Origin: Henricia sp. BOLD:AAB3569
Lineage: Eukaryota; Echinodermata; Asteroidea; Spinulosida; Echinasteridae
Assembly: GCA_037783545.1 (NCBI GenBank)
Contig: JBBELK010001111.1
Span: forward strand, 248,001-312,000
Direction of reading: 5' to 3'
DNA: 64,000 nt
The notes below the pieces were generated by a model that worked only from the letters and a program-made list of their open reading frames with translations, had not been told where the DNA came from and searched no databases. Made by a program: the position numbers and the translations under genes. Numbering within the stretch: the first letter of the stretch is position 1; each line of letters starts with the position of its first letter. Below, in pieces: positions 23,199 to 49,787 of this stretch.

Positions 23199-24776
23199 GA
23201 TACGTTACCGTTTTTTTCTGAACTATCTGAACATGTTACATTCGAGGAATATCCACATAGAGCTAGCCCAGGCAACAAGCCAAACCAGTAATTATATTGT
23301 ACATATGCCATAAGTATAACTGTTTTCACTTTAAAAAATATAGACCTGTCCTTGGAGAAAAAAAACACCGTGTTACGCACGAGTTGCGACAGATACGTTA
23401 CCTACATTCCCCTATCCTATGGAGAAACCCAGCGGTATCAGCCCTATTGCACCATACCAGTCAATAGAGGGCTGGGCCATGACCAATCAAGGAGCGATAG
23501 ATGTAGTGTACGGTAGCGCAGTTTGGAAATGACGGCATGTTTCGTTAATGGCCGGACAGATACGTTACGCGAGATACGTTACCGAAACGAGATACGTTAC
23601 CAAAAAGAATTTGAATTTTTGAGTCTTTTAACCCTTTTCTTAATGCAAATACCGCAAAAGACATGTTTTTACACAAATGTTCATGATTAAAAGGTTTAAA
23701 ACTTGTAAAAGAGGGTCAACGCATAATTGCAGTATGACGTTTGAAAAGTAGCATCAAAACATATGGCCGCGGACAGATACGTTACGCCAGATACGTTACC
23801 GAAACCAGATACGTTACCAAAAATAATTTAAATTTTTGAGTTTTCTACCTTTTTCTTAAAGTTGCACTGCCCGTGTTTGGGCTGATTTGGGCGTACAATT
23901 TTTTTTTAAAGTTAAATAGGTATTTTTCTAGAATAGAAAAAGTTATCAGCTTTCATTTGGTACCAAGAACGTAAAAATCCGTCAAGGATTAATGCCAGTC
24001 GATTAAAAACAAGAAATGATTAAAAGGCTGGCAGGTCATTTAATCGACAGGGTTATGACGTAAATGTACATGTGCGCGTACATGTGTACATTGTACACAT
24101 ACTATGTACATATGAGCGTACGCGCACATGTAAACATGTGAAGCACGTTTCAAGAAAAAGGCTTGTATCTCCAATTCCCGACGTCGGAAATTTAAGTTTT
24201 TGATATTTTTCGTTACAGAGACACGTAAGCTTTCTAAATTCGTTCGCTTGTGTAAATTAATTTTTTAAATCCTTTCACCGAAACACGGGCAATGCAACTT
24301 TAATGCAAATATCGCAAAAGACATGTGTTTGTGTATAACTGCTTAAATACGATATGTAACCCTTTTTGGCTGTTTCAAATTTGATTTGCCAGATACGTTA
24401 CCAGACACATCCTTATATTATTTATTGCGTTGTCTGAGTTGGGGAAGAAAAATCTGTGTTATTTCATGTTCGTTGAATTTGTCGTGACCAGTTTATTAGT
24501 TTACGGCGGTTAATCAAAAACTGCGAGACGGGGAGCAATTAATAAAGCGAGAACAATTATGTCGACATCCATTTCAAACAGACCTTACCCTGATTTGTTT
24601 CAACAACACACGGGCAAAAACGTGTTTTAGATTATTTACCAGTCAAAAATCTCAATTAAACCGACGTGTTTTCAATCGGATATGAGGCCTAACACCACCA
24701 TTCACACAGTTTAAACCTTATCATACTCAATTCACAGACATGCATTTTCTACAAGTATAATTGTGGTAACGTATCT
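23199..24776. repeat. Ten dispersed copies of AGATACGTTACC
   Basis: The 12-mer, or a one-base variant, occurs at 23199, 23391, 23558, 23572, 23589, 23774, 23789, 23805, 24391 and inverted at 24765. Two clusters of three lie in a tandemly duplicated segment of about 215 bp (23555-23770 and 23771 onward). Confidence 0.85.
23860..24299. mobile_element. 440-bp MITE with TTAA duplication, verified by an empty site
   Basis: The ends AGTTGCACTGCCCGTGTTT and AAACACGGGCAATGCAACT are inverted, with TTAA at 23856-23859 and 24300-24303. The adjacent tandem copy has the uninterrupted sequence TTTTCTTAATGCAAATA near 23636, so the TTAA duplication is directly demonstrated. The centre contains a second palindrome of GTACATGT / ACATGTAC elements near 24066-24125. 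Confidence 0.92.
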
Positions 24777-26693: not shown

Positions 26694-27347
26694 TTGCTAG
26701 GTTTAGTGATTGTGATATCTTTATATGACTTTTTTTAGCAGCCATGAACAAATAAAAACAATGAACTCTTAGTACGCATTAGTCTTTCACTCTCTAGTGC
26801 ATTACTGATTAAATTTCAGTATTTTTTTCACAAAACTATATACGAATAGTACGTGAATAGGCCTACATAATTTAATTATGGATTAGGTAAAAAGCTGGGG
26901 TATATTAAGAAGACTCAGTGTACAGTTTTTCGAATGTTTTTTTGAATGTTTCTTTTCGTTCGGTGTGGGGTGTCGGGTGTTCTTTCAATAAGCCCTTTTC
27001 CCTTGCCTTATTAAAGATCATCTCGAGAAGTATAAAATTATAGAAAAATACAAGTTACAAAACTGTTCATTCGCCTTTCTTCAGATTATGTCTGTATTTT
27101 TTTGATAGCAGATATCCACTTTTGAACCTATGTTTCACAACATGTTCGTACATGCGCCACCGAGAAGAAAACAAATAATCGGAGAGGGCGTTTTGTTAGG
27201 TCGACATTATGGCAGAACAAAAGGAGAGGGCACAATTTTATTTAGGTATAAATTTTCTAAACAATTGTATTTCATTCCCAAAACTTGATTTGCATGTAAT
27301 GGAGAGACATAATTATTAATAAAATAAATGAGTGCAAAGTAAAAAGT
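26694..27347. other. Unannotated AT-rich stretch
   Basis: Nothing recognised: no domain-bearing frame, RNA signature or clear repeat. Confidence 0.5.
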
Positions 27348-27660: not shown

Positions 27661-27803
27661 TTGGGGCGGGGGCGGGGCGGGGGCGGGGCGGGGGCGGGGC
27701 GGGGGCGGGGCGGGGGCGGGGCGGGGGCGGGGCGGGGGCGGGGCGGGGGCGGGGCGGGGGCGGGGCGGGGGCGGGGCGGGGGCGGGGCGGGGGCGGGGCG
27801 GGG
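27661..27803. repeat. 11-bp GC-rich minisatellite (GGGGCGGGGGC)n
   Basis: About 13 near-identical units of GGGGCGGGGGC abut the 5' end of the left SINE. Runs of four and five G every 5-6 bases give strong G-quadruplex potential. Each unit also contains a GC-box-like core. Long Gly/Ala and Pro/Arg frames here are artefacts. Confidence 0.95.
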
Positions 27804-28072
27804 GCGGTCGGGTTGGGGTACGGGTTCTTTCCTCGCCTTTCACCTCTGGCGTCCCGGGTTCGAATCCGGGGCGTGTATGTGGATTGGGTTTGCAGTCCCA
27901 ACTTGACCGCGTGGGTTTTCCCCTGGGGCATTTCTCTGGGGGTTTTCCTCCCACTTCTAAAACTGCAACTCCTTCTTCGTCATCTCAAGTTGATAATATA
28001 GTATAGTTAAAGCTAAAACCGTATAGTTGATGGCATAAAGGGCCTTAGTTGCCGAAGATGCCATAAAATATA
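27804..28072 (+). mobile_element. tRNA-derived SINE, left copy
   Basis: The head has an A-box-like GGTTGGGGTACGGG and a perfect B box, GGTTCGAATCC (27858-27868). The body includes GGGTTTTCCCCTGGGG and GGGGGTTTTCCTCCCAC, resembling conserved SINE central domains. The 3' part ends ATGCCATAAAATATACTACA followed by an (ACG)n tail. TGGCAT (28031) and ATGCCA (28058) can pair. It matches 46446-46728 in the same orientation. Confidence 0.85.
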
Positions 28073-28155
28073 CTACAACGACGACGACGACGAAAACCGT
28101 ATAGTTGATGGCATAAAGGGCCTTAGTTGCCGAAGATGCCATAAAATATACTACA

Positions 28156-28190
<35 letters not shown>
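28073..28190 (+). repeat. SINE tail: (ACG)n with a duplicated SINE 3' end
   Basis: After the first (ACG)n tail (28074-28092), the last 60 bases of the SINE (ACCGTATAGTTGATGGCATA to CCATAAAATATACT) are repeated at 28095-28154, followed by a longer (ACG)n run to 28190. This is a step in tail amplification. Confidence 0.9.
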
Positions 28191-28690
28191 AACAGACAAC
28201 GACAACGACAACGACCAACAACAGACAACGACAACGACCAACGACCAACAACAGACAACGACAACGACAACGACCAACAACAGACAACGACAACGACAAC
28301 GACCAACAACAGACAACGACAACGACAACGACCAACAACAGACAACGACAACGACAACGACCAACAACAGACAACGACAACGACAAACAACAGACAACGA
28401 CAACGACCAACAACAGACAACGACCAACAACAGACAACGACAACGACAACGACCAACGACCAACGACCAACGACCAACAACAGACAACGACAACGACCAA
28501 CAACAGACAACGACAACGACAACGACAACGACAACAAACAACAACAGACAACGACAACGACAACGACAACAAACAACAACAGACAACGACAACAAACAAC
28601 AACAGACAACAGACAACAGACAACAGACAACAGACAACAGACAACAACAGACAACAGACAACAGACAACAGACAACAACAGACAACAGAC
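28191..28690 (+). repeat. Transition zone: ACAACG / ACCAACAACAG repeats
   Basis: Units shift from CAGACAACGACAACGACCAA (28191-28560) to CAACAGACAACAGACAAC (28560-28690) before the GTGCCA satellite begins. Units blend without a break, consistent with stepwise mutation and amplification of one tail. Confidence 0.92.
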
Positions 28691-31600
28691 AACAGCCAAC
28701 AACAAGTGCCAACAACAAGTGCCAACAAGTGCCAACAACAAGTGCCAACGACAAGTGCCAGCAAGTGCCAACAACAAGTGCCAACAACAAGTGCCAACAA
28801 GTGCCAACAACAAGTGCCAACAACAAGTGCCAACAAGTGCCAACAACAAGTGCCAACAAGTGCCAACAACAAGTGCCAACAACAAGTGCCAACAAGTGCC
28901 AACAACAAGTGCCAACAACAAGTGCCAACAACAAGTGCCAACAAGTGCCAACAACAAGTGCCAACAACAAGTGCCAACAACAAGTGCCAACAACAAGTGC
29001 CAACAACAAGTGCCAACAACAAGTGCCAACAACAAGTGCCAACAACAAGTGCCAACAACAAGTGCCAACAACAAGTGCCAACAACAAGTGCCAACAAGTG
29101 CCAACAACAAGTGCCAACAACAAGTGCCAACAACAAGTGCCAACAACAAGTGCCAACAACAAGTGCCAACAACAAGTGCCAACAAGTGCCAACAACAAGT
29201 GCCAACAACAAGTGCCAACAAGTGCCAACAACAAGTGCCAACAACAAGTGCCAACAAGTGCCAACAACAAGTGCCAACAACAAGTGCCAACAAGTGCCAA
29301 CAACAAGTGCCAACAACAAGTGCCAACAAGTGCCAACAAGTGCCAACAACAAGTGCCAGCAAGTGCCAACAACAAGTGCCAACAACAAGTGCCAACAAGT
29401 GCCAACAACAAGTGCCAACAACAAGTGCCAACAAGTGCCAACAACAAGTGCCAACAACAAGTGCCAACAACAAGTGCCAACAACAAGTGCCAACAAGTGC
29501 CAACAACAAGTGCCAACAACAAGTGCCAACAAGTGCCAACAACAAGTGCCAACAAGTGCCAACAACAAGTGCCAACAACAAGTGCCAACAACAAGTGCCA
29601 ACAAGTGCCAACAACAAGTGCCAACAACAAGTGCCAACAAGTGCCACCAACAAGTGCCAACAACAAGTGCCAACAACAAGTGCCAACAACAAGTGCCAAC
29701 AACAAGTGCCAACAACAAGTGCCAACAAGTGCCAACAACAAGTGCCAACAACAAGTGCCAACAAGTGCCAACAACAAGTGCCAACAAGTGCCAACAACAA
29801 GTGCCAACAACAAGTGCCAACAACAAGTGCCAACAACAAGTGCCAACAAGTGCCAACAACAAGTGCCAACAACAAGTGCCAACAACAAGTGCCAACAACA
29901 AGTGCCAACAACAAGTGCCAACAACAAGTGCCAACAACAAGTGCCAACAACAAGTGCCAACAACAAGTGCCAACAACAAGTGCCAACAACAAGTGCCAAC
30001 AACAAGTGCCAACAACAAGTGCCAACAACAAGTGCCAACAACAAGTGCCAACAACAAGTGCCAACAAGTGCCAACAACAAGTGCCAACAACAAGTGCCAA
30101 CAACAAGTGCCAACAAGTGCCAACAACAAGTGCCAACAACAAGTGCCAACAAGTGCCAACAACAAGTGCCAACAACAAGTGCCAACAACAAGTGCCAACA
30201 AGTGCCAACAACAAGTGCCAACAACAAGTGCCAACAAGTGCCAACAACAAGTGCCAACAACAAGTGCCAACAAGTGCCAACAACTGCCAACAACAAGTGC
30301 CAACAACAAGTGCCAACAACAAGTGCCAACAAGTGCCAACAACAAGTGCCAACAACAAGTGCCAACAAGTGCCAACAACAAGTGCCAACAAGTGCCAACA
30401 ACAAGTGCCAACAACAAGTGCCAACAAGTGCCAACAACAAGTGCCAACAACAAGTGCCAACAAGTGCCAACAACAAGTGCCAACAACAAGTGCCAACAAC
30501 AAGTGCCAACAAGTGCCAACAACAAGTGCCAACAACAAGTGCCAACAAGTGCCAACAACAAGTGCCAACAACAAGTGCCAACAACAAGTGCCAACAACAA
30601 GTGCCAACAACAAGTGCCAACAAGTGCCAACAACAAGTGCCAACAACAAGTGCCAACAAGTGCCAACAAGTGCCAACAAGTGCCAACAACAAGTGCCAAC
30701 AAGTGCCAACAACAAGTGCCAACAACAAGTGCCAACAACAAGTGCCAACAACAAGTGCCAACAACAAGTGCCAACAACAAGTGCCAACAAGTGCCAACAA
30801 CAAGTGCCAACAACAAGTGCCAACAACAAGTGCCAACAAGTGCCAACAACAAGTGCCAACAACAAGTGCCAACAACAAGTGCCAACAAGTGCCAACAAGT
30901 GCCAACAACAAGTGCCAGCAAGTGCCAACAACAAGTGCCAACAACAAGTGCCAACAAGTGCCAACAACAAGTGCCAACAACAAGTGCCAACAAGTGCCAA
31001 CAACAAGTGCCAACAACAAGTGCCAACAACAAGTGCCAACAACAAGTGCCAACAAGTGCCAACAACAAGTGCCAACAACAAGTGCCAACAAGTGCCAACA
31101 ACAAGTGCCAACAAGTGCCAACAACAAGTGCCAACAACAAGTGCCAACAACAAGTGCCAACAAGTGCCAACAACAAGTGCCAACAACAAGTGCCAACAAG
31201 TGCCACCAACAAGTGCCAACAACAAGTGCCAACAACAAGTGCCAACAACAAGTGCCAACAACAAGTGCCAACAAGTGCCAACAACAAGTGCCAACAACAA
31301 GTGCCAACAAGTGCCAACAACAAGTGCCAACAAGTGCCAACAACAAGTGCCAACAACAAGTGCCAACAACAAGTGCCAACAACAAGTGCCAACAACAAGT
31401 GCCAACAACAAGTGCCAACAACAAGTGCCAACAACAAGTGCCAACAACAAGTGCCAACAACAAGTGCCAACAACAAGTGCCAACAACAAGTGCCAACAAC
31501 AAGTGCCAACAACAAGTGCCAACAACAAGTGCCAACAACAAGTGCCAACAACAAGTGCCAACAACAAGTGCCAACAAGTGCCAACAACAAGTGCCAACAA

Positions 31601-34600
31601 CAAGTGCCAACAACAAGTGCCAACAAGTGCCAACAACAAGTGCCAACAACAAGTGCCAACAAGTGCCAACAACAAGTGCCAACAACAAGTGCCAACAACA
31701 AGTGCCAACAAGTGCCAACAACAAGTGCCAACAACAAGTGCCAACAAGTGCCAACAACAAGTGCCAACAACAAGTGCCAACAAGTGCCAACAACTGCCAA
31801 CAACAAGTGCCAACAACAAGTGCCAACAACAAGTGCCAACAAGTGCCAACAACAAGTGCCAACAACAAGTGCCAACAAGTGCCAACAACAAGTGCCAACA
31901 AGTGCCAACAACAAGTGCCAACAACAAGTGCCAACAAGTGCCAACAACAAGTGCCAACAACAAGTGCCAACAAGTGCCAACAACAAGTGCCAACAACAAG
32001 TGCCAACAACAAGTGCCAACAAGTGCCAACAACAAGTGCCAACAACAAGTGCCAACAAGTGCCAACAACAAGTGCCAACAACAAGTGCCAACAACAAGTG
32101 CCAACAACAAGTGCCAACAACAAGTGCCAACAACAAGTGCCAACAAGTGCCAACAACAAGTGCCAACAACAAGTGCCAACAAGTGCCAACAAGTGCCAAC
32201 AAGTGCCAACAACAAGTGCCAACAAGTGCCAACAACAAGTGCCAACAACAAGTGCCAACAACAAGTGCCAACAACAAGTGCCAACAACAAGTGCCAACAA
32301 CAAGTGCCAACAAGTGCCAACAACAAGTGCCAACAACAAGTGCCAACAACAAGTGCCAACAAGTGCCAACAACAAGTGCCAACAACAAGTGCCAACAACA
32401 AGTGCCAACAACAAGTGCCAACAAGTGCCAACAACAAGTGCCAACAACAAGTGCCAACAAGTGCCAACAAGTGCCAACAACAAGTGCCAACAAGTGCCAA
32501 CAACAAGTGCCAACAACAAGTGCCAACAAGTGCCAACAACAAGTGCCAACAACAAGTGCCAACAACAAGTGCCAACAACAAGTGCCAACAACAAGTGCCA
32601 ACAACAAGTGCCAACAACAAGTGCCAACAACAAGTGCCAACAACAAGTGCCAACAACAAGTGCCAACAACAAGTGCCAACAACAAGTGCCAACAACAAGT
32701 GCCAACAAGTGCCAACAACAAGTGCCAACAAGTGCCAACAACAAGTGCCAACAAGTGCCAACAAGTGCCAACAACAAGTGCCAACAAGTGCCAACAAGTG
32801 CCAACAACAAGTGCCAACAAGTGCCAACAAGTGCCAACAACAACAACAACAAGTGCCAACAAGTGCCAACAACAACAACAACAACAAGTGCCAACAACCA
32901 ACAACAACAACAACAACAAGTGCCAACAACCAACAACAAGTGCCAACAACAAGTGCCAACAACCAACAAGTGCCAACAACAAGTGCCAACAACAAGTGCC
33001 AACAACAAGTGCCAACAACAAGTGCCAACAACAAGTGCCAACAACAAGTGCCAACAACAAGTGCCAACAAGTGCCAACAACAAGTGCCAACAACAAGTGC
33101 CAACAAGTGCCAACAACAAGTGCCAACAACAAGTGCCAACAAGTGCCAACAACAAGTGCCAACAACAAGTGCCAACAAGTGCCAACAACAAGTGCCAACA
33201 ACAAGTGCCAACAAGTGCCAACAACAAGTGCCAACAACAAGTGCCAACAACAAGTGCCAACAAGTGCCAACAACAAGTGCCAACAACAAGTGCCAACAAC
33301 AAGTGCCAACAAGTGCCAACAACAAGTGCCAACAACAAGTGCCAACAACAAGTGCCAACAAGTGCCAACAACAAGTGCCAACAACAAGTGCCAACAACAA
33401 GTGCCAACAACAAGTGCCAACAACAAGTGCCAACAACAAGTGCCAACAACAAGTGCCAACAACAAGTGCCAACAACAAGTGCCAACAACAAGTGCCAACA
33501 ACAAGTGCCAACAACAAGTGCCAACAACAAGTGCCAACAAGTGCCAACAACAAGTGCCAACAAGTGCCAACAACAAGTGCCAACAACAAGTGCCAACAAC
33601 AAGTGCCAACAACAAGTGCCAACAACAAGTGCCAACAACAAGTGCCAACAACAAGTGCCAACAACAAGTGCCAACAACAAGTGCCAACAACAAGTGCCAA
33701 CAACAAGTGCCAACAAGTGCCAACAACAAGTGCCAACAACAAGTGCCAACAACAAGTGCCAACAAGTGCCAACAACAAGTGCCAACAAGTGCCAACAACA
33801 ACAAGTGCCAACAAGTGCCAACAAGTGCCAACAACAAGTGCCAACAAGTGCCAACAACAAGTGCCAACAAGTGCCAACAACAACAACAACAAGTGCCAAC
33901 AAGTGCCAACAACAAGTGCCAACAAGTGCCAACAAGTGCCAACAACAAGTGCCAACAAGTGCCAACAAGTGCCAACAAGTGCCAACAACAAGTGCCAACA
34001 AGTGCCAACAACAACAAGTGCCAACAAGTGCCAACAACAAGTGCCAACAACCAACAAGTGCCAACAACAAGTGCCAACAACAAGTGCCAACAACAAGTGC
34101 CAACAAGTGCCAACAACAAGTGCCAACAACAAGTGCCAACAAGTGCCAACAACAAGTGCCAACAACAAGTGCCAACAAGTGCCAACAACAAGTGCCAACA
34201 AGTGCCAACAACAAGTGCCAACAACAAGTGCCAACAACAAGTGCCAACAAGTGCCAACAACAAGTGCCAACAACAAGTGCCAACAAGTGCCAACAACAAG
34301 TGCCAACAACAAGTGCCAACAACAAGTGCCAACAACAAGTGCCAACAACAAGTGCCAACAACAAGTGCCAACAAGTGCCAACAACAAGTGCCAACAACAA
34401 GTGCCAACAACAAGTGCCAACAACAAGTGCCAACAAGTGCCAACAACAAGTGCCAACAACAAGTGCCAACAACAAGTGCCAACAAGTGCCAACAACAAGT
34501 GCCAACAACAAGTGCCAACAAGTGCCAACAACAAGTGCCAACAACAAGTGCCAACAAGTGCCAACAACAAGTGCCAACAACAAGTGCCAACAAGTGCCAA

Positions 34601-35906
34601 CAACAAGTGCCAACAACAAGTGCCAACAAGTGCCAACAACAAGTGCCAACAACAAGTGCCAACAACAAGTGCCAACAACAAGTGCCAACAAGTGCCAACA
34701 ACAAGTGCCAACAACAAGTGCCAACAAGTGCCAACAACAAGTGCCAACAACAAGTGCCAACAACAAGTGCCAACAACAAGTGCCAACAACAAGTGCCAAC
34801 AACAAGTGCCAACAACAAGTGCCAACAACAAGTGCCAACAAGTGCCAACAACAAGTGCCAACAAGTGCCAACAACAAGTGCCAACAACAAGTGCCAACAA
34901 CAAGTGCCAACAACAAGTGCCAACAACAAGTGCCAACAACAAGTGCCAACAACAAGTGCCAACAACAAGTGCCAACAACAAGTGCCAACAACAAGTGCCA
35001 ACAACAAGTGCCAACAACAAGTGCCAACAACAAGTGCCAACAACAAGTGCCAACAACAAGTGCCAACAACAAGTGCCAACAAGTGCCAACAAGTGCCAAC
35101 AACAAGTGCCAACAAGTGCCAACAAGTGCCAACAACAAGTGCCAACAAGTGCCAACAACAACAAGTGCCAACAAGTGCCAACAAGTGCCAACAACAAGTG
35201 CCAACAAGTGCCAACAACAACAACAACAAGTGCCAACAAGTGACAACAACAAGTGCCAACAACCAACAACAAGTGCCAACAACAAGTGCCAACAACCAAC
35301 AAGTGCCAACAACAAGTGCCAACAACAAGTGCCAACAACAAGTGCCAACAACAAGTGCCAACAACAAGTGCCAACAACAAGTGCCAACAACAAGTGCCAA
35401 CAAGTGCCAACAACAAGTGCCAACAACAAGTGCCAACAACAAGTGCCAACAACAAGTGCCAACAACAAGTGCCAACAACAAGTGCCAACAAGTGCCAACA
35501 ACAAGTGCCAACAACAAGTGCCAACAAGTGCCAACAACAAGTGCCAACAACAAGTGCCAACAACAAGTGCCAACAAGTGCCAACAACAAGTGCCAACAAC
35601 AAGTGCCAACAAGTGCCAACAAGTGCCAACAAGTGCCAACAACAAGTGCCAACAAGTGCCAACAACAAGTGCCAACAACAAGTGCCAACAACAAGTGCCA
35701 ACAAGTGCCAACAAGTGCCAACAACAAGTGCCAACAACAAGTGCCAACAAGTGCCAACAAGTGCCAACAAGTGCCAACAACAAGTGCCAACAAGTGCCAA
35801 CAACAAGTGCCAACAACAAGTGCCAACAACAAGTGCCAACAAGTGCCAACAAGTGCCAACAACAAGTGCCAACAAGTGCCAACAACAACAACAACAAGTG
35901 CCAACA

Positions 35907-38432
35907 AGTGACAACAACAAGTGCCAACAACCAACAACAAGTGCCAACAACAAGTGCCAACAACCAACAAGTGCCAACAACAAGTGCCAACAACAAGTGC
36001 CAACAAGTGCCAACAACAACAAGTGCCAACAAGTGCCAACAAGTGCCAACAACAAGTGCCAACAAGTGCCAACAACAACAACAACAAGTGCCAACAAGTG
36101 ACAACAACAAGTGCCAACAACCAACAACAAGTGCCAACAACAAGTGCCAACAACCAACAAGTGCCAACAACAAGTGCCAACAACAAGTGCCAACAACAAG
36201 TGCCAACAACAAGTGCCAACAACAAGTGCCAACAACAAGTGCCAACAACAAGTGCCAACAAGTGCCAACAACAAGTGCCAACAACAAGTGCCAACAACAA
36301 GTGCCAACAACAAGTGCCAACAACAAGTGCCAACAACAAGTGCCAACAAGTGCCAACAACAAGTGCCAACAACAAGTGCCAACAAGTGCCAACAACAAGT
36401 GCCAACAACAAGTGCCAACAACAAGTGCCAACAAGTGCCAACAACAAGTGCCAACAACAAGTGCCAACAAGTGCCAACAAGTGCCAACAAGTGCCAACAA
36501 CAAGTGCCAACAAGTGCCAACAACAAGTGCCAACAACAAGTGCCAACAACAAGTGCCAACAAGTGCCAACAAGTGCCAACAACAAGTGCCAACAAGTGCC
36601 AACAACAACAACAACAAGTGCCAACAAGTGACAACAACAAGTGCCAACAACCAACAACAAGTGCCAACAACAAGTGCCAACAACCAACAAGTGCCAACAA
36701 CAAGTGCCAACAACAAGTGCCAACAACAAGTGCCAACAACAAGTGCCAACAACAAGTGCCAACAACAAGTGCCAACAACAAGTGCCAACAAGTGCCAACA
36801 ACAAGTGCCAACAACAAGTGCCAACAACAAGTGCCAACAACAAGTGCCAACAACAAGTGCCAACAACAAGTGCCAACAAGTGCCAACAACAAGTGCCAAC
36901 AACAAGTGCCAACAAGTGCCAACAACAAGTGCCAACAACAAGTGCCAACAACAAGTGCCAACAAGTGCCAACAACAAGTGCCAACAACAAGTGCCAACAA
37001 GTGCCAACAAGTGCCAACAAGTGCCAACAACAAGTGCCAACAAGTGCCAACAACAAGTGCCAACAACAAGTGCCAACAACAAGTGCCAACAACAAGTGCC
37101 AACAACAAGTGCCAACAACAAGTGCCAACAACAAGTGCCAACAACAAGTGCCAACAACAAGTGCCAACAAGTGACAACAACAAGTGCCAACAACCAACAA
37201 CAAGTGCCAACAACAAGTGCCAACAACCAACAAGTGCCAACAACAAGTGCCAACAACAAGTGCCAACAAGTGCCAACAACAACAAGTGCCAACAAGTGCC
37301 AACAAGTGCCAACAACAAGTGCCAACAAGTGCCAACAACAACAACAACAAGTGCCAACAAGTGACAACAACAAGTGCCAACAACCAACAACAAGTGCCAA
37401 CAACAAGTGCCAACAACCAACAAGTGCCAACAACAAGTGCCAACAACAAGTGCCAACAACAAGTGCCAACAACAAGTGCCAACAACAAGTGCCAACAACA
37501 AGTGCCAACAACAAGTGCCAACAAGTGCCAACAACAAGTGCCAACAACAAGTGCCAACAACAAGTGCCAACAACAAGTGCCAACAACAAGTGCCAACAAC
37601 AAGTGCCAACAAGTGCCAACAACAAGTGCCAACAACAAGTGCCAACAAGTGCCAACAACAAGTGCCAACAACAAGTGCCAACAACAAGTGCCAACAAGTG
37701 CCAACAACAAGTGCCAACAACAAGTGCCAACAAGTGCCAACAAGTGCCAACAAGTGCCAACAACAAGTGCCAACAAGTGCCAACAACAAGTGCCAACAAC
37801 AAGTGCCAACAACAAGTGCCAACAAGTGCCAACAAGTGCCAACAACAAGTGCCAACAAGTGCCAACAACAACAACAACAAGTGCCAACAAGTGACAACAA
37901 CAAGTGCCAACAACCAACAACAAGTGCCAACAACAAGTGCCAACAACCAACAAGTGCCAACAACAAGTGCCAACAACAAGTGCCAACAACAAGTGCCAAC
38001 AACAAGTGCCAACAACAAGTGCCAACAACAAGTGCCAACAACAAGTGCCAACAAGTGCCAACAACAAGTGCCAACAACAAGTGCCAACAACAAGTGCCAA
38101 CAACAAGTGCCAACAACAAGTGCCAACAACAAGTGCCAACAAGTGCCAACAACAAGTGCCAACAACAAGTGCCAACAAGTGCCAACAACAAGTGCCAACA
38201 ACAAGTGCCAACAACAAGTGCCACAACAAGTGCCAACAACAAGTGCCAACAACAAGTGCCAACAAGTGCCAACAACAAGTGCCAACAACAAGTGCCAACA
38301 ACAAGTGCCAACAAGTGCCAACAACAAGTGCCAACAACAAGTGCCAACAACAAGTGCCAACAACAAGTGCCAACAACAAGTGCCAACAACAAGTGCCAAC
38401 AACAAGTGCCAACAACAAGTGCCAACAACAAG
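35907..38432 (+). repeat. 1263-bp higher-order repeat within the satellite
   Basis: The rare variant GTGACAACAACAAGTGCC followed by AACCAACAA inserts marks positions near 35907, 36097, 36627, 37170, 37360 and 37890. Spacing 190, 530 and 543 bp repeats exactly, so a 1263-bp block is duplicated in tandem. A further marker near 35239 shows that the family extends left with a different spacing (668 bp). Confidence 0.85.
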
Positions 38433-41400
38433 TGCCAACAAGTGCCAACAACAAGTGCCAACAACAAGTGCCAACAAGTGCCAACAACAAGTGCCAACAA
38501 CAAGTGCCAACAACAAGTGCCAACAAGTGCCAACAACAAGTGCCAACAACAAGTGCCAACAACAAGTGCCAACAACAAGTGCCAACAAGTGCCAACAACA
38601 AGTGCCAACAACAAGTGCCAACAACAAGTGCCAACAACAAGTGCCAACAACAAGTGCCAACAAGTGCCAACAACAAGTGCCAACAACAAGTGCCAACAAG
38701 TGCCAACAACAAGTGCCAACAACAAGTGCCAACAAGTGCCAACAACAAGTGCCAACAACAAGTGCCAACAACAAGTGCCAACAAGTGCCAACAACAAGTG
38801 CCAACAACAAGTGCCAACAACAAGTGCCAACAACAAGTGCCAACAACAAGTGCCAACAAGTGCCAACAAGTGCCAACAACAAGTGCCAACAAGTGCCAAC
38901 AAGTGCCAACAACAAGTGCCAACAACAAGTGCCAACAACAAGTGCCAACAACAAGTGCCAACAACAAGTGCCAACATCAAGTGCCAACAACAAGTGCCAA
39001 CAACAAGTGCCAACAAGTGCCAACAACAAGTGCCAACAACAAGTGCCAACAAGTGCCAACAACAAGTGCCAACAACAAGTGCCAACAAGTGCCAACAACA
39101 AGTGCAAACAACAAGTGCCAACAACAAGTGCCAACAAGTGCCAACAACAAGTGCCAACAAGTGCCAACAACAAGTGCCAACAACAAGTGCCAACAACAAG
39201 TGCCAACAACAAGTGCCAACAACAAGTGCCAACAACAAGTGCCAACAACAAGTGCCAACAACAAGTGCCAACAAGTGCCAACAACAAGTGCCAACAACAA
39301 GTGCCAACAAGTGCCAACAACAAGTGCCAACAAGTGCCAACAACAAGTGCCAACAAGTGCCAACAAGTGCCAACAACAAGTGCCAACAAGTGCCAACAAC
39401 AAGTGCCAACAAGTGCCAACAACAAGTGCCAACAACAAGTGCCAACAAGTGCCAACAACAAGTGCCAACAAGTGCCAACAAGTGCCAACAACAAGTGCCA
39501 ACAAGTGCCAACAACAACAAGTGCCAACAAGTGCCAACAACAACAAGTGCCAACAAGTGCCAACAACAAGTGCCAACAAGTGCCAACAACAACAAGTGCC
39601 AACAAGTGCCAACAACAACAAGTGCCAACAAGTGCCAACAACAACAACAACAACAACAACAAGTGCCAACAACAACAACAACAACAACAACAAGTGCCAA
39701 CAACAACAACAACAACAAGTGCCAACAAGTGCCAACAACAACAACAACAAGTGCCAACAAGTGCCAACAACAACAACAACAACAAGTGCCAACAACCAAC
39801 AACAACAACAACAACAAGTGCCAACAACCAACAACAAGTGCCAACAACAAGTGCCAACAACCAACAAGTGCCAACAACAAGTGCCAACAACAAGTGCCAA
39901 CAACAAGTGCCAACAAGTGCCAACAACAAGTGCCAACAACAAGTGCCAACAAGTGCCAACAACAAGTGCCAACAACAAGTGCCAACAACAAGTGCCAACA
40001 ACAAGTGCCAACAACAAGTGCCAACAACAAGTGCCAACAAGTGCCAACAACAAGTGCCAACAACAAGTGCCAACAAGTGCCAACAAGTGCCAACAACAAG
40101 TGCCAACAAGTGCCAACAACAAGTGCCAACAACAAGTGCCAACAACAAGTGCCAACAACAAGTGCCAACAACAAGTGCCAACAAGTGCCAACAACAAGTG
40201 CCAACAAGTGCCAACAACAAGTGCCAACAAGTGCCAACAACAAGTGCCAACAAGTGCCAACAAGTGCCAACAAGTGCCAACAAGTGCCAACAAGTGCCAA
40301 CAAGTGCCAACAAGTGCCAACAAGTGCCAACAAGTGCCAACAACAACAAGTGCCAACAAGTGCCAACAACAAGTGCCAACAACAAGTGCCAACAACAAGT
40401 GCCAACAACAAGTGCCAACAAGTGCCAACAACAACAAGTGCCAACAAGTGCCAACAACAAGTGCCAACAAGTGCCAACAACAACAAGTGCCAACAAGTGC
40501 CAACAACAACAAGTGCCAACAAGTGCCAACAACAAGTGCCAACAAGTGCCAACAACAACAACAACAACAACAACAAGTGCCAACAACAACAACAACAACA
40601 ACAACAACAAGTGCCAACAACAACAACAACAAGTGCCAACAACAACAACAACAACAACAACAACAAGTGCCAACAACCAACAACAACAACAACAACAACA
40701 ACAACAACCAACAACAACAACAACAACAAGTGCCAACAACCAACAACAACAACAACAACAAGTGCCAACAACCAACAACAAGTGCCAACAACAAGTGCCA
40801 ACAACCAACAAGTGCCAACAACAAGTGCCAACAACAAGTGCCAACAACAAGTGCCAACAACAAGTGCCAACAACAAGTGCCAACAACAAGTGCCAACAAC
40901 AAGTGCCAACAACAAGTGCCAACAACAAGTGCCAACAACAAGTGCCAACAAGTGCCAACAACAAGTGCCAACAAGTGCCAACAACAAGTGCCAACAAGTG
41001 CCAACAACAAGTGCCAACAACAAGTGCCAACAAGTGCCAACAACAAGTGCCAACAACAAGTGCCAACAACAAGTGCCAACAACAAGTGCCAACAACAAGT
41101 GCCAACAACAAGTGCCAACAACAAGTGCCAACAACAAGTGCCAACAACAAGTGCCAACAACAAGTGCCAACAACAAGTGCCAACAACAAGTGCCAACAAG
41201 TGCCAACAACAAGTGCCAACAAGTGCCAACAACAAGTGCCAACAAGTGCCAACAACAAGTGCCAACAAGTGCCAACAACAAGTGCCAACAACAAGTGCCA
41301 ACAAGTGCCAACAACAAGTGCCAACAACAAGTGCCAACAACAAGTGCCAACAACAAGTGCCAACAACAAGTGCCAACAACAAGTGCCAACAACAAGTGCC

Positions 41401-41972
41401 AACAACAAGTGCCAACAACAAGTGCCAACAAGTGCCAACAACAAGTGCCAACAACAAGTGCCAACAAGTGCCAACAACAAGTGCCAACAACAAGTGCCAA
41501 CAACAAGTGCCAACAACAAGTGCCAACAACAAGTGCCAACAACAAGTGCCAACAACAAGTGCCAACAACAAGTGCCAACAACAAGTGCCAACAACAAGTG
41601 CCAACAACAAGTGCCAACAACAAGTGCCAACAACAAGTGCCAACAAGTGCCAACAACAAGTGCCAACAAGTGCCAACAACAAGTGCCAACAAGTGCCAAC
41701 AACAAGTGCCAACAAGTGCCAACAACAAGTGCCAACAAGTGCCAACAAGTGCCAACAACAAGTGCCAACAAGTGCCAACAACAACAAGTGCCAACAAGTG
41801 CCAACAAGTGCCAACAACAAGTGCCAACAAGTGCCAACAACAACAACAACAAGTGCCAACAAGTGCCAACAACAACAAGTGCCAACAACAACAACAAGTG
41901 CCAACAACAACAACAACAACAACAAGTGCCAACAACAACAACAACAAGTGCCAACAACAACAACAACAACAA

Positions 41973-42486
41973 GTAACAACAACAACAACAACAAGTGCCA
42001 ACAACAACAACAAGTGCCAACAACAACAACAACAACAACAAGTGCCAACAACAACAACAACAACAACAACAAGTGCCAACAACAACAACAACAACAACAA
42101 CAAGTGCCAACAACCAACAACAACAACAACAAGTGCCAACAACCAACAACAACAACAACAAGTGCCAACAACCAACAACAACAACTGCCAACAACCAACA
42201 ACAACAAGTGCCAACAACCAACAACAACAAGTGCCAACAACCAACAACAACAACAACAACAGCCAACAGCAACAACAACAACAAGTGCCAACAACAACAA
42301 CAAGTGCCAACAACAACAACAACAACAACAAGTGCCAACAACAACAACAACAACAACAAGTGCCAACAACAACAACAACAACAACAACAACAAGTGCCAA
42401 CAACAACAACAACAACAACAACAAGTGCCAACAACCAACAACAACAACAACAAGTGCCAACAACAACAACAACAACAAGTGCCGCC

Positions 42487-42518
<32 letters not shown>

Positions 42519-44133
42519 GTGCCGCCAACAACAACAACAACAACAACAAGTGCCAACAACAACAACAACAACAAGTGCCAACAACAAGTGCCAACAAGTG
42601 CCAACAACAACAACAACAACAACAAGTGCCAACAACAACAACAACAACAACAACAACAAGTGCCAACAACAACAACAACAACAAGTGCCAACAACAACAA
42701 CAACAACAACAAGTGCCAACAACAACAACAACAACAACAAGTGCCAACAACCAACAACAACAACAACAACAAGTGCCAACAACCAACAACAACAACAACA
42801 ACAAGTGCCAACAACCAACAACAAGTGCCAACAACAAGTGCCAACAACCAACAAGTGCCAACAACAAGTGCCAACAACAAGTGCCAACAACAAGTGCCAA
42901 CAACAAGTGCCAACAACAAGTGCCAACAACAAGTGCCAACAACAAGTGCCAACAACAAGTGCCAACAAGTGCCAACAACAAGTGCCAACAAGTGCCAACA
43001 ACAAGTGCCAACAACAAGTGCCAACAAGTGCCAACAACAAGTGCCAACAACAAGTGCCAACAAGTGCCACCAACAAGTGCCAACAACAAGTGCCAACAAC
43101 AAGTGCCAACAACAAGTGCCAACAACAAGTGCCAACAACAAGTGCCAACAAGTGCCAACAACAAGTGCCAACAACAAGTGCCAACAAGTGCCAACAACAA
43201 GTGCCAACAAGTGCCAACAACAAGTGCCAACAACAAGTGCCAACAACAAGTGCCAACAACAAGTGCCAACAACAAGTGCCAACAACAAGTGCCAACAAGT
43301 GCCAACAACAAGTGCCAACAAGTGCCAACAACAAGTGCCAACAAGTGCCAACAACAAGTGCCAACAAGTGCCAACAACAAGTGCCAACAAGTGCCAACAA
43401 GTGCCAACAACAAGTGCCAACAAGTGCCAACAACAACAAGTGCCAACAAGTGCCAACAAGTGCCAACAACAAGTGCCAACAAGTGCCAACAACAACAACA
43501 ACAAGTGCCAACAAGTGCCAACAACAACAAGTGCCAACAACAACAACAAGTTCCAACAACAACAACAACAACAACAAGTGCCAACAACAACAACAACAAG
43601 TGCCAACAACAACAACAACAACAAGTAACAACAACAACAACAACAAGTGCCAACAACAACAACAAGTGCCAACAACAACAACAACAACAACAAGTGCCAA
43701 CAACAACAACAACAACAACAACAAGTGCCAACAACCAACAACAACAACAAGTGCCAACAACCAACAACAACAACAACAAGTGCCAACAACCAACAACAAC
43801 AACAACAAGTGCCAACAACCAACAACAACAACTGCCAACAACCAACAACAACAAGTGCCAACAACCAACAACAACAAGTGCCAACAACCAACAACAACAA
43901 CAACAACAGCCAACAGCAACAACAACAACAAGTGCCAACAACAACAACAAGTGCCAACAACAACAACAACAACAACAAGTGCCAACAACAACAACAACAA
44001 CAACAAGTGCCAACAACAACAACAACAACAACAACAACAAGTGCCAACAACAACAACAACAACAACAACAAGTGCCAACAACCAACAACAACAACAACAA
44101 GTGCCAACAACAACAACAACAACAAGTGCCGCC

Positions 44134-44165
<32 letters not shown>

Positions 44166-45276
44166 GTGCCGCCAACAACAACAACAACAACAACAAGTGC
44201 CAACAACAACAACAACAACAAGTGCCAACAACAAGTGCCAACAAGTGCCAACAACAACAACAACAACAACAAGTGCCAACAACAACAACAACAACAACAA
44301 CAACAAGTGCCAACAACAACAACAACAACAAGTGCCAACAACAACAACAACAACAACAAGTGCCAACAACAACAACAACAACAACAAGTGCCAACAACCA
44401 ACAACAACAACAACAACAAGTGCCAACAACCAACAACAACAACAACAACAAGTGCCAACAACCAACAACAAGTGCCAACAACAAGTGCCAACAACCAACA
44501 AGTGCCAACAACAAGTGCCAACAACAAGTGCCAACAACAAGTGCCAACAACAAGTGCCAACAACAAGTGCCAACAACAAGTGCCAACAACAAGTGCCAAC
44601 AACAAGTGCCAACAACAAGTGCCAACAAGTGCCAACAACAAGTGCCAACAAGTGCCAACAACAAGTGCCAACAACAAGTGCCAACAAGTGCCAACAACAA
44701 GTGCCAACAACAAGTGCCAACAAGTGCCAACAACAAGTGCCAACAACAAGTGCCAACAACAAGTGCCAACAACAAGTGCCAACAACAAGTGCCAACAACA
44801 AGTGCCAACAACAAGTGCCAACAACAAGTGCCAACAACAAGTGCCAACAACAAGTGCCAACAACAAGTGCCAACAACAAGTGCCAACAACAAGTGCCAAC
44901 AAGTGCCAACAACAAGTGCCAACAAGTGCCATCAACAAGTGCCAACAAGTGCCAACAACAAGTGCCAACAAGTGCCAACAAGTGCCAACAACAAGTGCCA
45001 ACAAGTGCCAACAAGTGCCAACAACAAGTGCCAACAAGTGCCAACAACAACAAGTGCCAACAAGTGCCAACAAGTGCCAACAACAAGTGCCAACAACAAC
45101 AACAACAAGTGCCAACAAGTGCCAACAACAACAACAACAAGTGCCAACAACCAACAACAACAACAACAACAAGTGCCAACAACCAACAACAAGTGCCAAC
45201 AACAAGTGCCAACAACCAACAAGTGCCAACAACAAGTGCCAACAACAAGTGCCAACAACAAGTGCCAACAACAAGT
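41973..45276 (+). repeat. Higher-order repeat of about 1.65 kb within the satellite
   Basis: The unique variant AAGTAACAACAAC occurs at 41973 and 43625 (1652 bp apart). It is followed in both by the same order of markers: AACTGCCAAC (42185, 43832), CAGCCAACAGCAAC (42258, 43905) and GTGCCGCCAAC units. A third, shorter copy of the marker block starts near 45735 (AACTGCC at 45918). Confidence 0.8.
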
Positions 45277-46204
45277 GCCAACAACAAGTGCCAACAACAA
45301 GTGCCAACAACAAGTGCCAACAACAAGTGCCAACAACAAGTGCCAACAACAAGTGCCAACAACAAGTGCCAACAACAAGTGCCAACAACAAGTGCCAACA
45401 ACAAGTGCCAACAACAAGTGCCAACAAGTGCCAACAACAAGTGCCAACAACAAGTGCCAACAACAAGTGCCAACAACAAGTGCCAACAACAAGTGCCAAC
45501 AACAAGTGCCAACAACAAGTGCCAACAAGTGCCAACAACAAGTGCCAACAAGTGCCAACAACAAGTGCCAACAAGTGCCAACAACAAGTGCCAACAAGTG
45601 CCAACAAGTGCCAACAACAAGTGCCAACAAGTGCCAACAAGTGCCAACAACAAGTGCCAACAAGTGCCAACAACAACAAGTGCCAACAAGTGCCAACAAC
45701 AAGTGCCAACAACAAGTGCCAACAAGTGCCAACAACAACAACAACAACAACAAGTGCCAACAACAACAACAACAACAACAAGTGCCAACAACAACAACAA
45801 CAACAACAAGTGCCAACAACCAACAACAACAACAAGTGCCAACAACCAACAACAACAACAACAAGTGCCAACAACCAACAACAACAACAACAAGTGCCAA
45901 CAACCAACAACAACAACTGCCAACAACCAACAACAACAAGTGCCAACAACCAACAACAACAAGTGCCAACAACCAACAACAACAACAACAACAGCCAACA
46001 GCAACAACAACAACAAGTGCCAACAACAACAACAAGTGCCAACAACAACAACAACAACAAGTGCCAACAAGTGCCAACAACAACAACAAGTGCCAACAAC
46101 AACAACAACAACAAGTGCCAACAACAACAACAACAACAACAAGTGCCAACAACCAACAACAACAACAACAAGTGCCAGCAACAACAACAACAACAAGTGC
46201 CGCC

Positions 46205-46236
<32 letters not shown>

Positions 46237-46395
46237 GTGCCGCCAACAACAACAACAACAACAAGTGCCGCCAACAACAACAACAACAAGTGCCGCCAAC
46301 AACAACAACAACAAGTGCCGCCAACAACAACAACAACAAGTGCCGCCAACAACAACAACAACAAGTGCCGCCAACAACAACAACAACAAGTGCCG

Positions 46396-46438
<43 letters not shown>

Positions 46439-46445
46439 GTGCCAA

Positions 46446-46728
46446 GGGGGGCGGTCGGGTTGGCGTAGAGGTTTTTTCCTCGCCTTTCACCTCTGGGGTC
46501 CCGGGTTCGAATCCGGGGCTTGTATGTGGATTGGGTTTGCAGTCCATACTTGACCGCGTGGGTTTTCCCCTGGGGCATTTCTCTGGGGGTTTTCCTCCCA
46601 CTTCTAAAACTGCAACTCCTTCTTCGTCATCTCAAGTTGATAATATAGTATAGTTAAAGCTAAAACCGTATAGTTGATGGCATAAAGGGCCTTAGTTGCC
46701 GAATATGCCATAAATTAACAACAGCAAC
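46446..46728 (+). mobile_element. tRNA-derived SINE, right copy
   Basis: Full-length relative of 27804-28072, same direction. It has an A box TTGGCGTAGAGG, a B box GGTTCGAATCC (46505-46515), the body GGGTTTTCCCCTGGGG, and an end TATGCCATAAATTAACAACA followed by GCAAC. It starts directly where the satellite ends. The tail here is only a few ACA units, unlike the left copy. TGGCATA (46678) and TATGCCA (46704) form a 7-bp stem. Confidence 0.87.
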
Positions 46729-46742
46729 GTATGTGCCATCTG
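46729..46742. repeat. Left target-site duplication of the LINE
   Basis: GTATGTGCCATCTG here is repeated exactly at 49774-49787, bracketing the LINE. Confidence 0.93.
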
Positions 46743-46995
46743 ATCAGGGACTTTCGGTTGGGACGTTGACAAGGTCGGACGAGTTTCGTTTTTTGTCAAA
46801 TTGGACCTGCCATTCGATATTTTCTACCATCTTTTAAGTTTAATCCTGTACGCTTTCCTGTGCTCTTGCAGGTTTTGCATAGTCTTGGCGAAAAGGTAAG
46901 GCAGTAGTATAAATTCGGACTGTATAATAAACTATTAAACTATTAAACTATTTTCCATACCAGAGAGTCGGCCCTTGGGCGCGGTCCCAAACAAC

Positions 46996-48599
46996 ATGGC
47001 CGACAATGACGATGAAAATAACTCAGATTCCGATATGTGGTTGAACGAATTGTCCCAACAAAACATCAAACAAGATGAACAGGGAAAAAGCAACAAACCT
47101 CAATCTACTCTGTAGCGGCTAATCAGCCAAGCACAAGAGGACAGCTCTTATATTTCTAGTTCCAGCCAACCTTCATCTAAATCATCTAAAAAGAGACCGC
47201 TCAATCACTCGCAAAGTTCTAATCAAACTGACAACAGTGACTCGGATTATGGTTCTTCCACAGGTCACCAAACAAAACGTAGAAATGTAAATTTGTATCC
47301 TACCATGGTTGTCATAACATCACCGGACATCAAACTAGCTGCTGTAAATCCCGTGAAAATAGGCAAAGCCATAAATGATATCAACAAAGACTACATAAAG
47401 AATGTCACAAAAGAACGGCCAAGGAGGCATAACAGTACGCTATCACACACACGCTCAGGCACAAAAAAGGGAAATAGGGAAGGTCTGCTTGAGAAAAGCC
47501 TCTCGGTGTGCCTCACCTTCAACAAACCCACACTCCCTGACTACTTCCAAGTTGGTTAGGAAATTTTCAATGTCAAATTGGGGTGATACTATATACCGGA
47601 AAACACCGGAAAACACCGGAAAATACCGGAAAACACCGGAAAACTCAACGGAAAACACCGGAAAACACCGGAAAACATACTAAATACCGGAAAACACTAA
47701 ATACCGGAAAACACCGAAAAACACCGGAAAACATACTAAATACCGGAAAACACACTAAATACCGGAAAACACACTAAATACCGGAAAACACCGGAAAACA
47801 CACTAAATACCGGAAAACACCGGAAAACATACCAAATACCGGAAAACACACTAAATACCGGAAAACACCAGAAAGCACTTAAAACACCACCCCCACTACC
47901 TGCAGAAAACACCATAAAATACTGTTTTCCGGTGTTTTCCGGTATTTAGTATGTTTTCCGGTATTTAGTATGTTTTCCGGTGTTTTCCGGTAAATAGTAC
48001 TACGGTCAAATTGTACATCCCGCCTGTTGTAGGGTGCTTCAAGTGTCAGCGCTTAGGTCATGTGTCAAGCCAATGCAGAGGGGCAATGAGATGTGTTAGA
48101 TGTAAACAGCAGTGTGAACAGAAGGAGAATGCCCGCTGCTGTCGTTGCGGAGGAAATAATTCGGCTCCTTATGGTGGTTGCTCCACTATCAGAGAAGAAA
48201 AGAAGATTTAAAGCACCCGTGTCACCTATAATATATATTATGCAGAAACAGCGAAGGCTATCAAAACCGACGTTATCTTTGAACCCAACAGCACATCATC
48301 ATCCGCCAACTTATCATCACCCGCAAGCTCATGTAAACAAGGATCAAGTGAACCGACCGTTTCAAAATCAACCAACATAAACTCAACGCTACCTGAACCG
48401 CCCTAAACCTCTCCTTCGTAAAGCAGATGCCTCCACACAGACTGAAACACAAAGTACTGGAACTCAAACTAGCCCAACCTCTTTCTTCAGCCAAGCTGAC
48501 CACGCCCTTGTTGAAATGCTGATGGGAGCTCTACAAATATTTGAGTCCATCAAGCACAAGGCACAACAAGCACAAAGAGAAATGCCATCAAAACACTAG
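46996..48599 (+). pseudogene. LINE ORF1 (CCHC nucleic-acid binding protein), broken
   Basis: The frame opens at ATG 46996 (MADNDDENNSDSDMW), has a TAG at 47113, stays in frame to 47559 (VVITSPDIKLAAVNPVKIGK), is interrupted by the 47586-48002 repeat insert, and resumes with CFKCQRLGHVSSQC, RCVRC and CCRCGGNNSAPYGGC (48032-48170). This is the triple zinc-knuckle pattern of I/Jockey-type ORF1. A late part, HALVEMLMGALQIFESIKHK, ends at TAG 48597-48599. The product would bind LINE RNA in the RNP. Frameshifts and the stop make it a pseudogene. Confidence 0.82.
47586..48002. repeat. Decamer array ACCGGAAAAC with an inverted end (fold-back insert)
   Basis: Left part: many copies of ACCGGAAAAC and ACTAAATACCGGAAAAC. 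Right end (47930-48000): the complement, GTTTTCCGGTGTTTTCCGGT. The outer ends ATACTATATACCGG and CCGGTAAATAGTAC are nearly inverted, so the whole insert can fold back. It interrupts LINE ORF1. Confidence 0.85.
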
Positions 48600-48609
48600 T
48601 TGAACATAT

Positions 48610-49260
48610 TTCCCATGCATTCATGTGACTGTCTTAGTGCTATTCAAGCCATTACTGAACCGATTCCTGACAATAAACTTATTTGTGATATTCGCCATGT
48701 TCTAGTTAATCTTTATAATCAGATTAATACAGTATTTTTTATATAGATTCCTGGACATTGTGCCTTGCCAAACTAGCTACCCAGAAAGACCGCATAGATT
48801 TTAATATCCCGCTTAGTAATGGTGAAGTTAAACATTTAATGAAACAACAAATCAAACATCAGTGGCAAAGATGATGAGACGACTCTAAGCCTTCCCATCT
48901 TAAGTTAATTCAACCCCGTAATCCTGCCAGATTCCCCACTTGGAGATTTGACCGGAGAAATGAGACTATTCTACATAGACTTAGATTAGGTGTATGTAAA
49001 AATCGTAATAGTTTCCTTCACTTAATAGGTAAACACCCTTCTGGTTTGTGTGATGAGTGTAAGCAGTATGATGATATTACACACTTTCTTTTGTATTGCA
49101 AAACATTCAACACACAGAGATTTGCTATCAAAAATTGACTGGGCTTATTGGATTCTGACATGACATTGAACAAATTACTTGGAGAAAGCAAAAACGCTAA
49201 CAAAATACTCTATTTCATCACAAATTGTAACGTGGAAACATAACTTTTTGGTGTATTTGT
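48610..49260 (+). pseudogene. LINE ORF2 remnant: RNase H end and C-terminal domain
   Basis: Frames show IQAITEPIPDNKLICDIRHV, then IPGHC and KLATQKDRIDFNIPL (end of RNase H, as in IPGH..A..AKLA of related LINEs), then ETILHRLRLGVCKNRNSFLH and CDECKQYDDITHFLLYCKTF. The last is the C-terminal zinc-like motif of I/Jockey-type ORF2 (C-x2-C-x7-H-x4-C). Everything upstream in ORF2 (endonuclease, reverse transcriptase) is deleted, the junction lying just after the ORF1 stop. Confidence 0.75.
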
Positions 49261-49716
49261 CTATAGTTTTAAAGTCTTTTTTTTCCTTTTTATTTCTAAA
49301 CTATTCATGTAAAGTCCCTGAATTTATCTACTGCCTTCAAGTGGTGGTGTTTATGATTGTTCTTATGTGTCTTATGATACATATGTAACTTTAAAGTATT
49401 TGGTAGGGAGGAGTGAGTGAGTGGTTGACTGGGCACAGTGCTGCCCTTCATCACCTGGAGGCTTGCGGACCTGTGACAATACCGGCTGGGCCTTGTGCTC
49501 TCAAATTGCCTGGGAAACGGCCGCCCTTGCAGGACCCTGGTGGCGCTGTGCCTGGGTGACCACAAACTCCTGTTCCTTACCCCCACCTTCTTTTTGCCTT
49601 TAAAAATATATATATTTTCTGTTTCACTTTGTCAACGTCCTGACCTACAGTCCACCTATCATTTCCCAAATGCACTGTTTGGAAACTCTGCAGAATGTGC
49701 TAATTTTTGTATGTAG

Positions 49717-49749
49717 TGGCACAAAGGACATCACCTGTCATATGTGCCA
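49717..49749 (+). other. LINE 3'-terminal stem-loop
   Basis: TGGCACA (49717-49723) pairs with TGTGCCA (49743-49749), immediately before the TAATTAACAACAAC tail. The SINE has the same structure with TGGCATA/TATGCCA. In stringent LINEs such a 3' structure is the reverse transcriptase recognition site; that role here is inference. Confidence 0.7.
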
Positions 49750-49773
49750 TAATTAACAACAACAACAACAACA

Positions 49774-49787
49774 GTATGTGCCATCTG
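49774..49787. repeat. Right target-site duplication of the LINE
   Basis: Exact copy of 46729-46742 (GTATGTGCCATCTG). Confidence 0.93.

Follow-up and report, generated by a model that had tools for sequence, protein, structure and literature searches.

The 64,000-nucleotide stretch of Henricia sp. BOLD:AAB3569 analyzed here (G000:C1111:248001-312000, contig JBBELK010001111.1 of assembly GCA_037783545.1; hereafter the window) contains an 18.3-kb satellite array that starts in the 3' tail of a short interspersed element (SINE), and we conclude that this satellite was probably born once, at the tail of a single SINE copy, and has since been carried along with that SINE. The assembly comprises 740.7 Mb in 2,104 contigs; C-numbers denote contigs of this same assembly, with the window lying on C1111, and array lengths throughout are those of the assembled sequence. 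The array runs unbroken from position 28153 to 46445 between two SINEs on the same strand, passing from (ACG)n through ACAACG and CCAACAACAG into 10/13-bp units of the form GTGCCAACAA(CAA)n. Tandem Repeats Finder (TRF) divides it into two overlapping arrays (Table 1), the first with 6/29-bp units containing ACAACG and ACCAACAACAG and the second with 1,461 copies of the 13-bp unit ACAACAAGTGCCA, and direct reading gives the motif order ACG, ACAACG, CCAACAACAG, CAACAG, CAACAGCC and GTGCCAACAACAA without a gap. Both approaches bear out the continuous gradation from tail to satellite unit described in the initial annotation, which had placed the array at 28073 to 46443; the array itself stands, with the first of these positions falling inside the first tail copy and the second 2 bases short of the end.

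When split at GTGCC, the array yields 1,280 segments, of which 773 are GTGCCAACAACAA and 329 are GTGCCAACAA. Unit length follows 10+3k bp in 1,211 of 1,279 units, each consisting of GTGCCAACAA followed by zero to many CAA. Units of 10 and 13 bp dominate the left part, CAA-rich long ones are commonest from ∼41.7 kb rightward, and all 11 occurrences of GTGCCGCCAACAACAA fall within 42479-46365. Runs of identical units, the longest comprising 79 units (1,057 bp) at an offset of 1,263 bp, recur within the array at offsets that include 1,263, 1,510, 530, and 1,647 bp, indicating that blocks of hundreds of bases to ∼1 kb have been duplicated internally. This higher-order duplication and the rightward increase of CAA-rich long units add to what had been annotated before. 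The array also contains stop-free frames, and both strands carry open reading frames (ORFs) thousands of residues long, but we rejected a coding role and take these to be by-products of composition.

A search of the whole assembly with the exact 21-mer of the left transition, which edges lacking that 21-mer escape, returned nine places on seven contigs: C1, C43 (twice), C132, C599, C777, C849 (twice), and the window. Counting the window, eight of these nine left edges lie at the same left SINE, with the array passing through the same motif order; seven of the eight copies outside the window have the same SINE copy in front, and the one in C1 has no SINE. The link between SINE tail and array is real. 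The transition zone spans 534-664 bp in the eight copies that retain the SINE, and their SINE bodies differ from one another by 0-1 substitutions over 220-263 aligned bases (43 bp are missing from the C599 body, and at a tandem-duplication joint the second C849 module starts partway through the SINE head), compared with 10-11 substitutions between them and the right SINE. Because the bodies are so alike, we favor a single founding event followed by duplication of the module; in the aligned sequences, such near-identity would be expected of recent copies, of haplotypes from a few loci, or of gene conversion, but not of independent births. The proposed SINE-tail origin thus holds for the left edge, as one ancestral case, whereas recurrent births find no support. 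The repeat forms long, homogenized head-to-tail arrays at several loci, as satellite DNA does, and the continuity of its arrays with the SINE 3' tail marks them as tail seeded.

Array length is highly variable among the stretches read (0.46-18.3 kb): 5.0 kb in C1, 1.2 and 2.8 kb in C43, 1.8 kb in C132, 0.46 and at least 9.9 kb in C849, 8.2 kb up to an inversion in C599, and at least 9.9 kb in C777. The left flank of the window is shared up to the edge of the sequence read (window 27040-27217) in the first C43 copy, C132, C777, and the first C849 copy; it reaches only to 27323 in the second C43 module and only to ∼27613 in C599, and the second C849 module lacks it.

On either side of the array, the SINE-free copy in C1 runs colinear with the window (12245-14346, 21471-24173, and 46439-62437; 98.3-100% identity per piece, outside satellite sequence), with a ∼266-bp satellite extending the match back to window position 7611. 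C1 lacks the window sequence from 24178 to ∼28150, left SINE included, and its joint lies at GACG, which is the tail motif, so the simplest account of these sequences would be a deletion between GACG and the (ACG)n tail in which the SINE was lost. An independent insertion of the array at the GACG site was also considered and is ruled out by the colinear flanks on both sides. The array has the same polarity in both copies. Colinearity ends on the left within the 266-bp satellite and on the right near C1111:315272, within the stretch read, and C1 and C1111 may be either haplotypes or segmental duplicates.

The right ends of the arrays are far less uniform than the left. Six were reached in addition to that of the window, the C777 and second C849 arrays running beyond the stretches read. 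Two arrays, that of C1 and the second of C43, run up to the same right SINE, which is followed by the same fragment resembling a long interspersed element (LINE) and the same downstream sequence (99.3% identity over 7.2 kb for the second C43 right flank). The first C43 array ends CAACAAGTG/TCGGGTG and continues into sequence 99.6% identical to window 26970-27213; the window near 26970 reads GGGGTGTCGGG, sharing GTG. The first C849 array ends CAACAAGT/ACGGG inside a SINE head that reads GGGGTACGGG, sharing GT. Judged from these shared bases, tandem duplication with microhomology of 2-3 bp appears to account for both joints, and the modules are spaced, transition to transition, at 6.4 kb in C43 and 1.37 kb in C849. 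The C132 array leaves into unrelated sequence without a right SINE, its right flank having no match to the window or the C1 stretch and only 57 bp at 82% in the C1111 stretch. The C599 array turns into its reverse complement at a near-perfect palindrome (C599:303875, L034:8276; GTGCCAAC-T-GTTGGCAC), which reflects either genuine inverted duplication or a fold-back artifact of assembly. The same-direction SINE annotated at the right end of the array is present in the window, where the last GTGCCAA abuts its first G, but such an ending fails as a general rule: two of the six arrays end at the right SINE, two at the next tandem module, one in unrelated DNA, and one in the inversion. Given this variety, we regard later insertion as the best account of the right SINE.

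The right ends also bear on two other explanations. The two SINEs of the window could be the ends of an old tandem duplication of SINE, tail, and GTGCCA, with the array arising between them by unequal exchange, as might be suggested by their common orientation, by the GTGCCA that both closes the array and follows the right SINE tail, and by the tandem SINE-plus-array modules that do form in C43 and C849. We consider this improbable, since the two SINE bodies, although 95.1% identical over 284 bp on the same strand (blastn, 27800-28083 against 46447-46729), are 10 substitutions and 11 gap columns apart and have different tails, while copies of the left SINE are near-identical, and since the C132 array exits without a right SINE. 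It is very unlikely that the array length, the block duplications, or the C599 inversion are assembly errors, with several contigs being haplotypes of fewer loci: the near-palindromic switch in C599 and the ∼99% colinearity of C1 and C1111 are what such errors might produce, but array edges and unit order recur, differently arranged, on seven contigs, and the right flank is common to three (C1, C43, and C1111), of which a single locus with two haplotypes would account for only two.

The composition of the unit can be approached through the right boundary, where the final GTGCCA of the array is followed by a single A and then by the right SINE (junction sequence ACAAGTGCCAAGGGGGGCGG). GTGCCA occurs on both sides of the right SINE, one copy lying in non-array DNA beyond it. 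The 14-mer GTATGTGCCATCTG has exactly two occurrences in the window, which bracket the LINE-like fragment, and this duplication together with a zinc knuckle is the basis for the LINE label. A zf-CCHC domain was found in the fragment (two other frames tried against Pfam gave no match), and local alignment joins its 3' end with the SINE 3' end, as for a SINE and its partner LINE. Removing both the SINE and the LINE-like insertion in thought places the array-final GTGCCA beside TCTGCGTATC, hence our view that GTGCCA came from the captured flank; TATGTGCCAT also occurs near (ACA)n in the 3' end of the LINE-like fragment. GTGCCA is thus probably captured flanking DNA or a sequence resembling the LINE 3' end, and the unit no pure tail, which suggests that the array unit combines SINE tail and captured flank. 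If flank capture did occur, the left SINE tail would originally have adjoined GTGCCATCTGCG. The idea that the array is the 5' region of a mobile LINE was rejected, as the 14-bp duplication bounds the LINE-like fragment apart from the array and the C132 array stands without LINE-like sequence. Within the fragment, at 47595-47985, are nested tandem repeats of ACCGGAAAAC with an inverted copy, and the C1 version of this region is longer and duplicated.

The left SINE has a putative tRNA-type head with a B-box-like motif, GGTTCGAATCC; ARAGORN found no tRNA in the SINE, and Rfam gave no match at the gathering threshold. The element may be a member of one of the named superfamilies, MetaSINE being a candidate. 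The G-rich run at its head also occurs in five other copies whose heads were read (both C43 copies, C132, C599, and the first C849 copy). This 11-bp tandem repeat means that the left SINE is expanded at both ends, and the length of the run differs among copies.

We hypothesize the following history. A SINE with the (ACG)/(CAA)-type tail still present today would have inserted, and its tail would have grown by slippage while the motif drifted in the order now read along the array, from ACG to ACAACG to CAACAG. The new unit may then have been made where tail met flank, by tandem duplication of 13 bp (ACAACAA+GTGCCA), a step we infer because GTGCCA is also found in the non-array DNA beyond the right SINE. 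No longer a pure microsatellite, this unit would have expanded by slippage and unequal exchange, with the duplication of blocks up to ∼1 kb that is visible within the array. A second SINE would later have inserted at the right boundary, the GTGCCA repeated on its two sides being its putative target-site duplication, and the LINE-like element would have followed 3' of that SINE, with the 14-bp duplication. Finally, the whole region or the SINE-plus-array module alone would have been duplicated to the several places where copies and joints are now found, partly as tandem duplications with joints sharing 2-3 bp, with length and structure changing from copy to copy thereafter. No host function need be invoked; the array behaves as a repeat that is unstable and either selfish or neutral. 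We put forward only tentatively a more specific version, in which the founding unit was a tandem duplication across the boundary between SINE tail and insertion site, and the resulting module is now spreading with a ∼40-fold variation in length at no more than one SINE-body base of difference.

Several points weigh against a single birth at the SINE tail. No target-site duplication of the left SINE was recognized by eye, which leaves the original adjacency of tail and GTGCCA putative, and the core could equally have come from the LINE-like 3' end TATGTGCCATAATTAACAACAACA, with its GTGCCA near (ACA)n. A single locus may be represented as haplotypes by more than one contig, every length given is that of the assembly, and the requirement for an exact 21-mer hides left edges that lack it. 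A further point comes from the abundance of the unit. A 26-mer of two units has 7,037 matches in the whole assembly (3,465 + 3,572), against 0 for a reversed control pattern, which excludes chance. The stretches read account for 1,941 of them (C1111, 505; C849, 415; C599, 361; C777, 333; C1, 155; C43, 105; C132, 67), and the other 5,096 may either continue the unread C599, C777, and C849 arrays or sit away from any SINE. These unlocated matches would be in keeping with a pre-existing GTGCCAACAACAA satellite that was joined to the SINE tail by recombination in (ACG)n/(CAA)n microsatellite, making the gradient a product of the junction, and C1 demonstrates that breakage at the ACG motif does happen. 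This account is nonetheless unlikely, as stepwise intermediates, and no single junction, fill the transition zone in all eight SINE-bearing copies, and the left-transition search, within the reach of its exact 21-mer, gave no array edge away from the SINE. Viral contigs scanned with the array unit and with the SINE 3' end gave 0 matches each, and five 8-kb stretches sampled from other contigs contained no array and one SINE relative (L019:6421-6603), which is alike in its head and middle region and different in its 3' end and tail.

Table 1. Features associated with the array, in window coordinates
Feature	Position	Strand	Basis
Window sequence at the putative C1 deletion point	24174..24186	+	AATTCCCGACGTCGG in window, AATTCGACGACG in C1
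(GGGGCGGGGGC)n, 13 copies, expansion at left SINE 5' head	27663..27807	+	TRF
Left SINE, putative tRNA-type head, B-box-like GGTTCGAATCC, proposed array founder	27800..28083	+	blastn to right SINE; other genomic copies
Perfect 78-bp tandem duplication, SINE 3' end plus (ACG)n	28015..28171	+	TRF, 2 copies, 100%
Transition zone: (ACG)11, ACAACG, CCAACAACAG, CAACAG, CAACAGCC	28153..28705	+	TRF, direct reading
Main array, 10/13-bp GTGCCAACAA(CAA)n units, higher-order duplications, CAA-rich long units rightward	28672..46445	+	TRF, unit coding
Last GTGCCA of array, 5' side of possible 6-bp target-site duplication of right SINE	46439..46444	+	
Right SINE with (ACA)n-type tail	46446..46728	+	
GTATGTGCCATCTG, left copy of 14-bp target-site duplication of LINE-like insertion	46729..46742	+	Exact repeat
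GTGCCA in 3' flank of right SINE, matches array core	46733..46738	+	
LINE-like fragment: zinc-knuckle ORF1 remains, ORF2 C-terminal-like remains (by eye), 3' end GTGCCATAATTAACAACAACA	46743..49773	+	
Right copy of 14-bp target-site duplication of LINE-like fragment	49774..49787	+	

The surroundings of the array are rich in other repeats. The ∼266-bp satellite occupies 7750-12571 and is found in C1 at 390444-396060 and, inverted, at 441635-442425. A ∼7.1-kb insertion at 14346-21471, with inverted arms (14342-15491 versus 20308-21475, 95.8%) and a reverse transcriptase (RT) domain, is missing at the matching C1 site and so constitutes a presence/absence difference between the two copies. A long terminal repeat (LTR) retrotransposon at 50022-55812 stands at the same place in C1 and was partly read in C43; its 184-bp end repeats share 99.5% identity, and it has RT-RNase H domains and an integrase zinc-binding match below the cutoff, on the minus strand. 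ORFs at 58160-61967 with a PHD finger and weak UCH-like and Ulp1-type peptidase matches probably belong to a mobile-element gene; one part of this region had three protein matches, the only named one being from Apostichopus japonicus (53% identity, 52% of query).

Literature searches that combined SINE tails with satellites and tandem repeats, or microsatellite tails with SINEs, found none, and one on sea cucumber satellite DNA with SINE and tandem repeat found nothing related. Alu-derived minisatellites and (GAA)n repeats are generally smaller in scale. In the excerpted table of PMC9659126 they appear as tail-seeded tandem repeats, and in this they resemble the present array; module dispersal is not among the features described for them in that excerpt. 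Satellites and minisatellites derived from SINEs are also on record, including PcH-Sat from Nin-SINE in limpets (excerpts of PMC11121367 and PMC9659126). As in those families, a SINE has here yielded a tandem repeat family at several places, but PcH-Sat, as the excerpts present it, repeats part of the SINE body, whereas our array repeats the tail and adjoining bases alone and its founder junction is still readable. Satellites seeded by transposable elements are thus already known, and what sets this one apart is the unusual completeness of its founder junction, together with a unit made of more than tail alone. Founder junctions are usually lost, and with them the view of how a satellite started; here we find side by side the founder SINE, intermediate motifs, and the mature unit, along with several copies that vary widely in length at near-zero SINE divergence, so that models of satellite birth (slippage, captured flank, unequal exchange, and module duplication) are open to testing.

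The closest parallel is found among human repeat expansions. According to the excerpted text of PMC8773600, pentanucleotide expansions in ATXN10, BEAN1/TK2, RFC1, and SAMD12 sit in Alu poly-A tails, spinocerebellar ataxia type 10 (SCA10) involves 800-4,500 ATTCT repeats in the ATXN10 Alu tail, and the SCA37 repeat lies in the middle A-rich region of an Alu. By our arithmetic from that excerpt, 4,500 pentamers amount to ∼22 kb, and the initial view that the scale of the Henricia array is unusual for a SINE tail is weakened accordingly. The array resembles the expansions excerpted there (ATXN10 ATTCT in SCA10, BEAN1/TK2 in SCA31, RFC1 AAGGG in cerebellar ataxia, neuropathy, and vestibular areflexia syndrome [CANVAS], and SAMD12 in familial adult myoclonic epilepsy type 1 [FAME1]) in having a SINE 3' tail as its seed, a change of motif with expansion, and large differences in length between alleles. 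Unlike them, as far as the excerpt describes them, it has a 10/13-bp unit that includes a non-tail hexamer, and its module is found on several contigs. It would give Alu-tail repeat expansion a counterpart of similar scale in an animal other than a primate.

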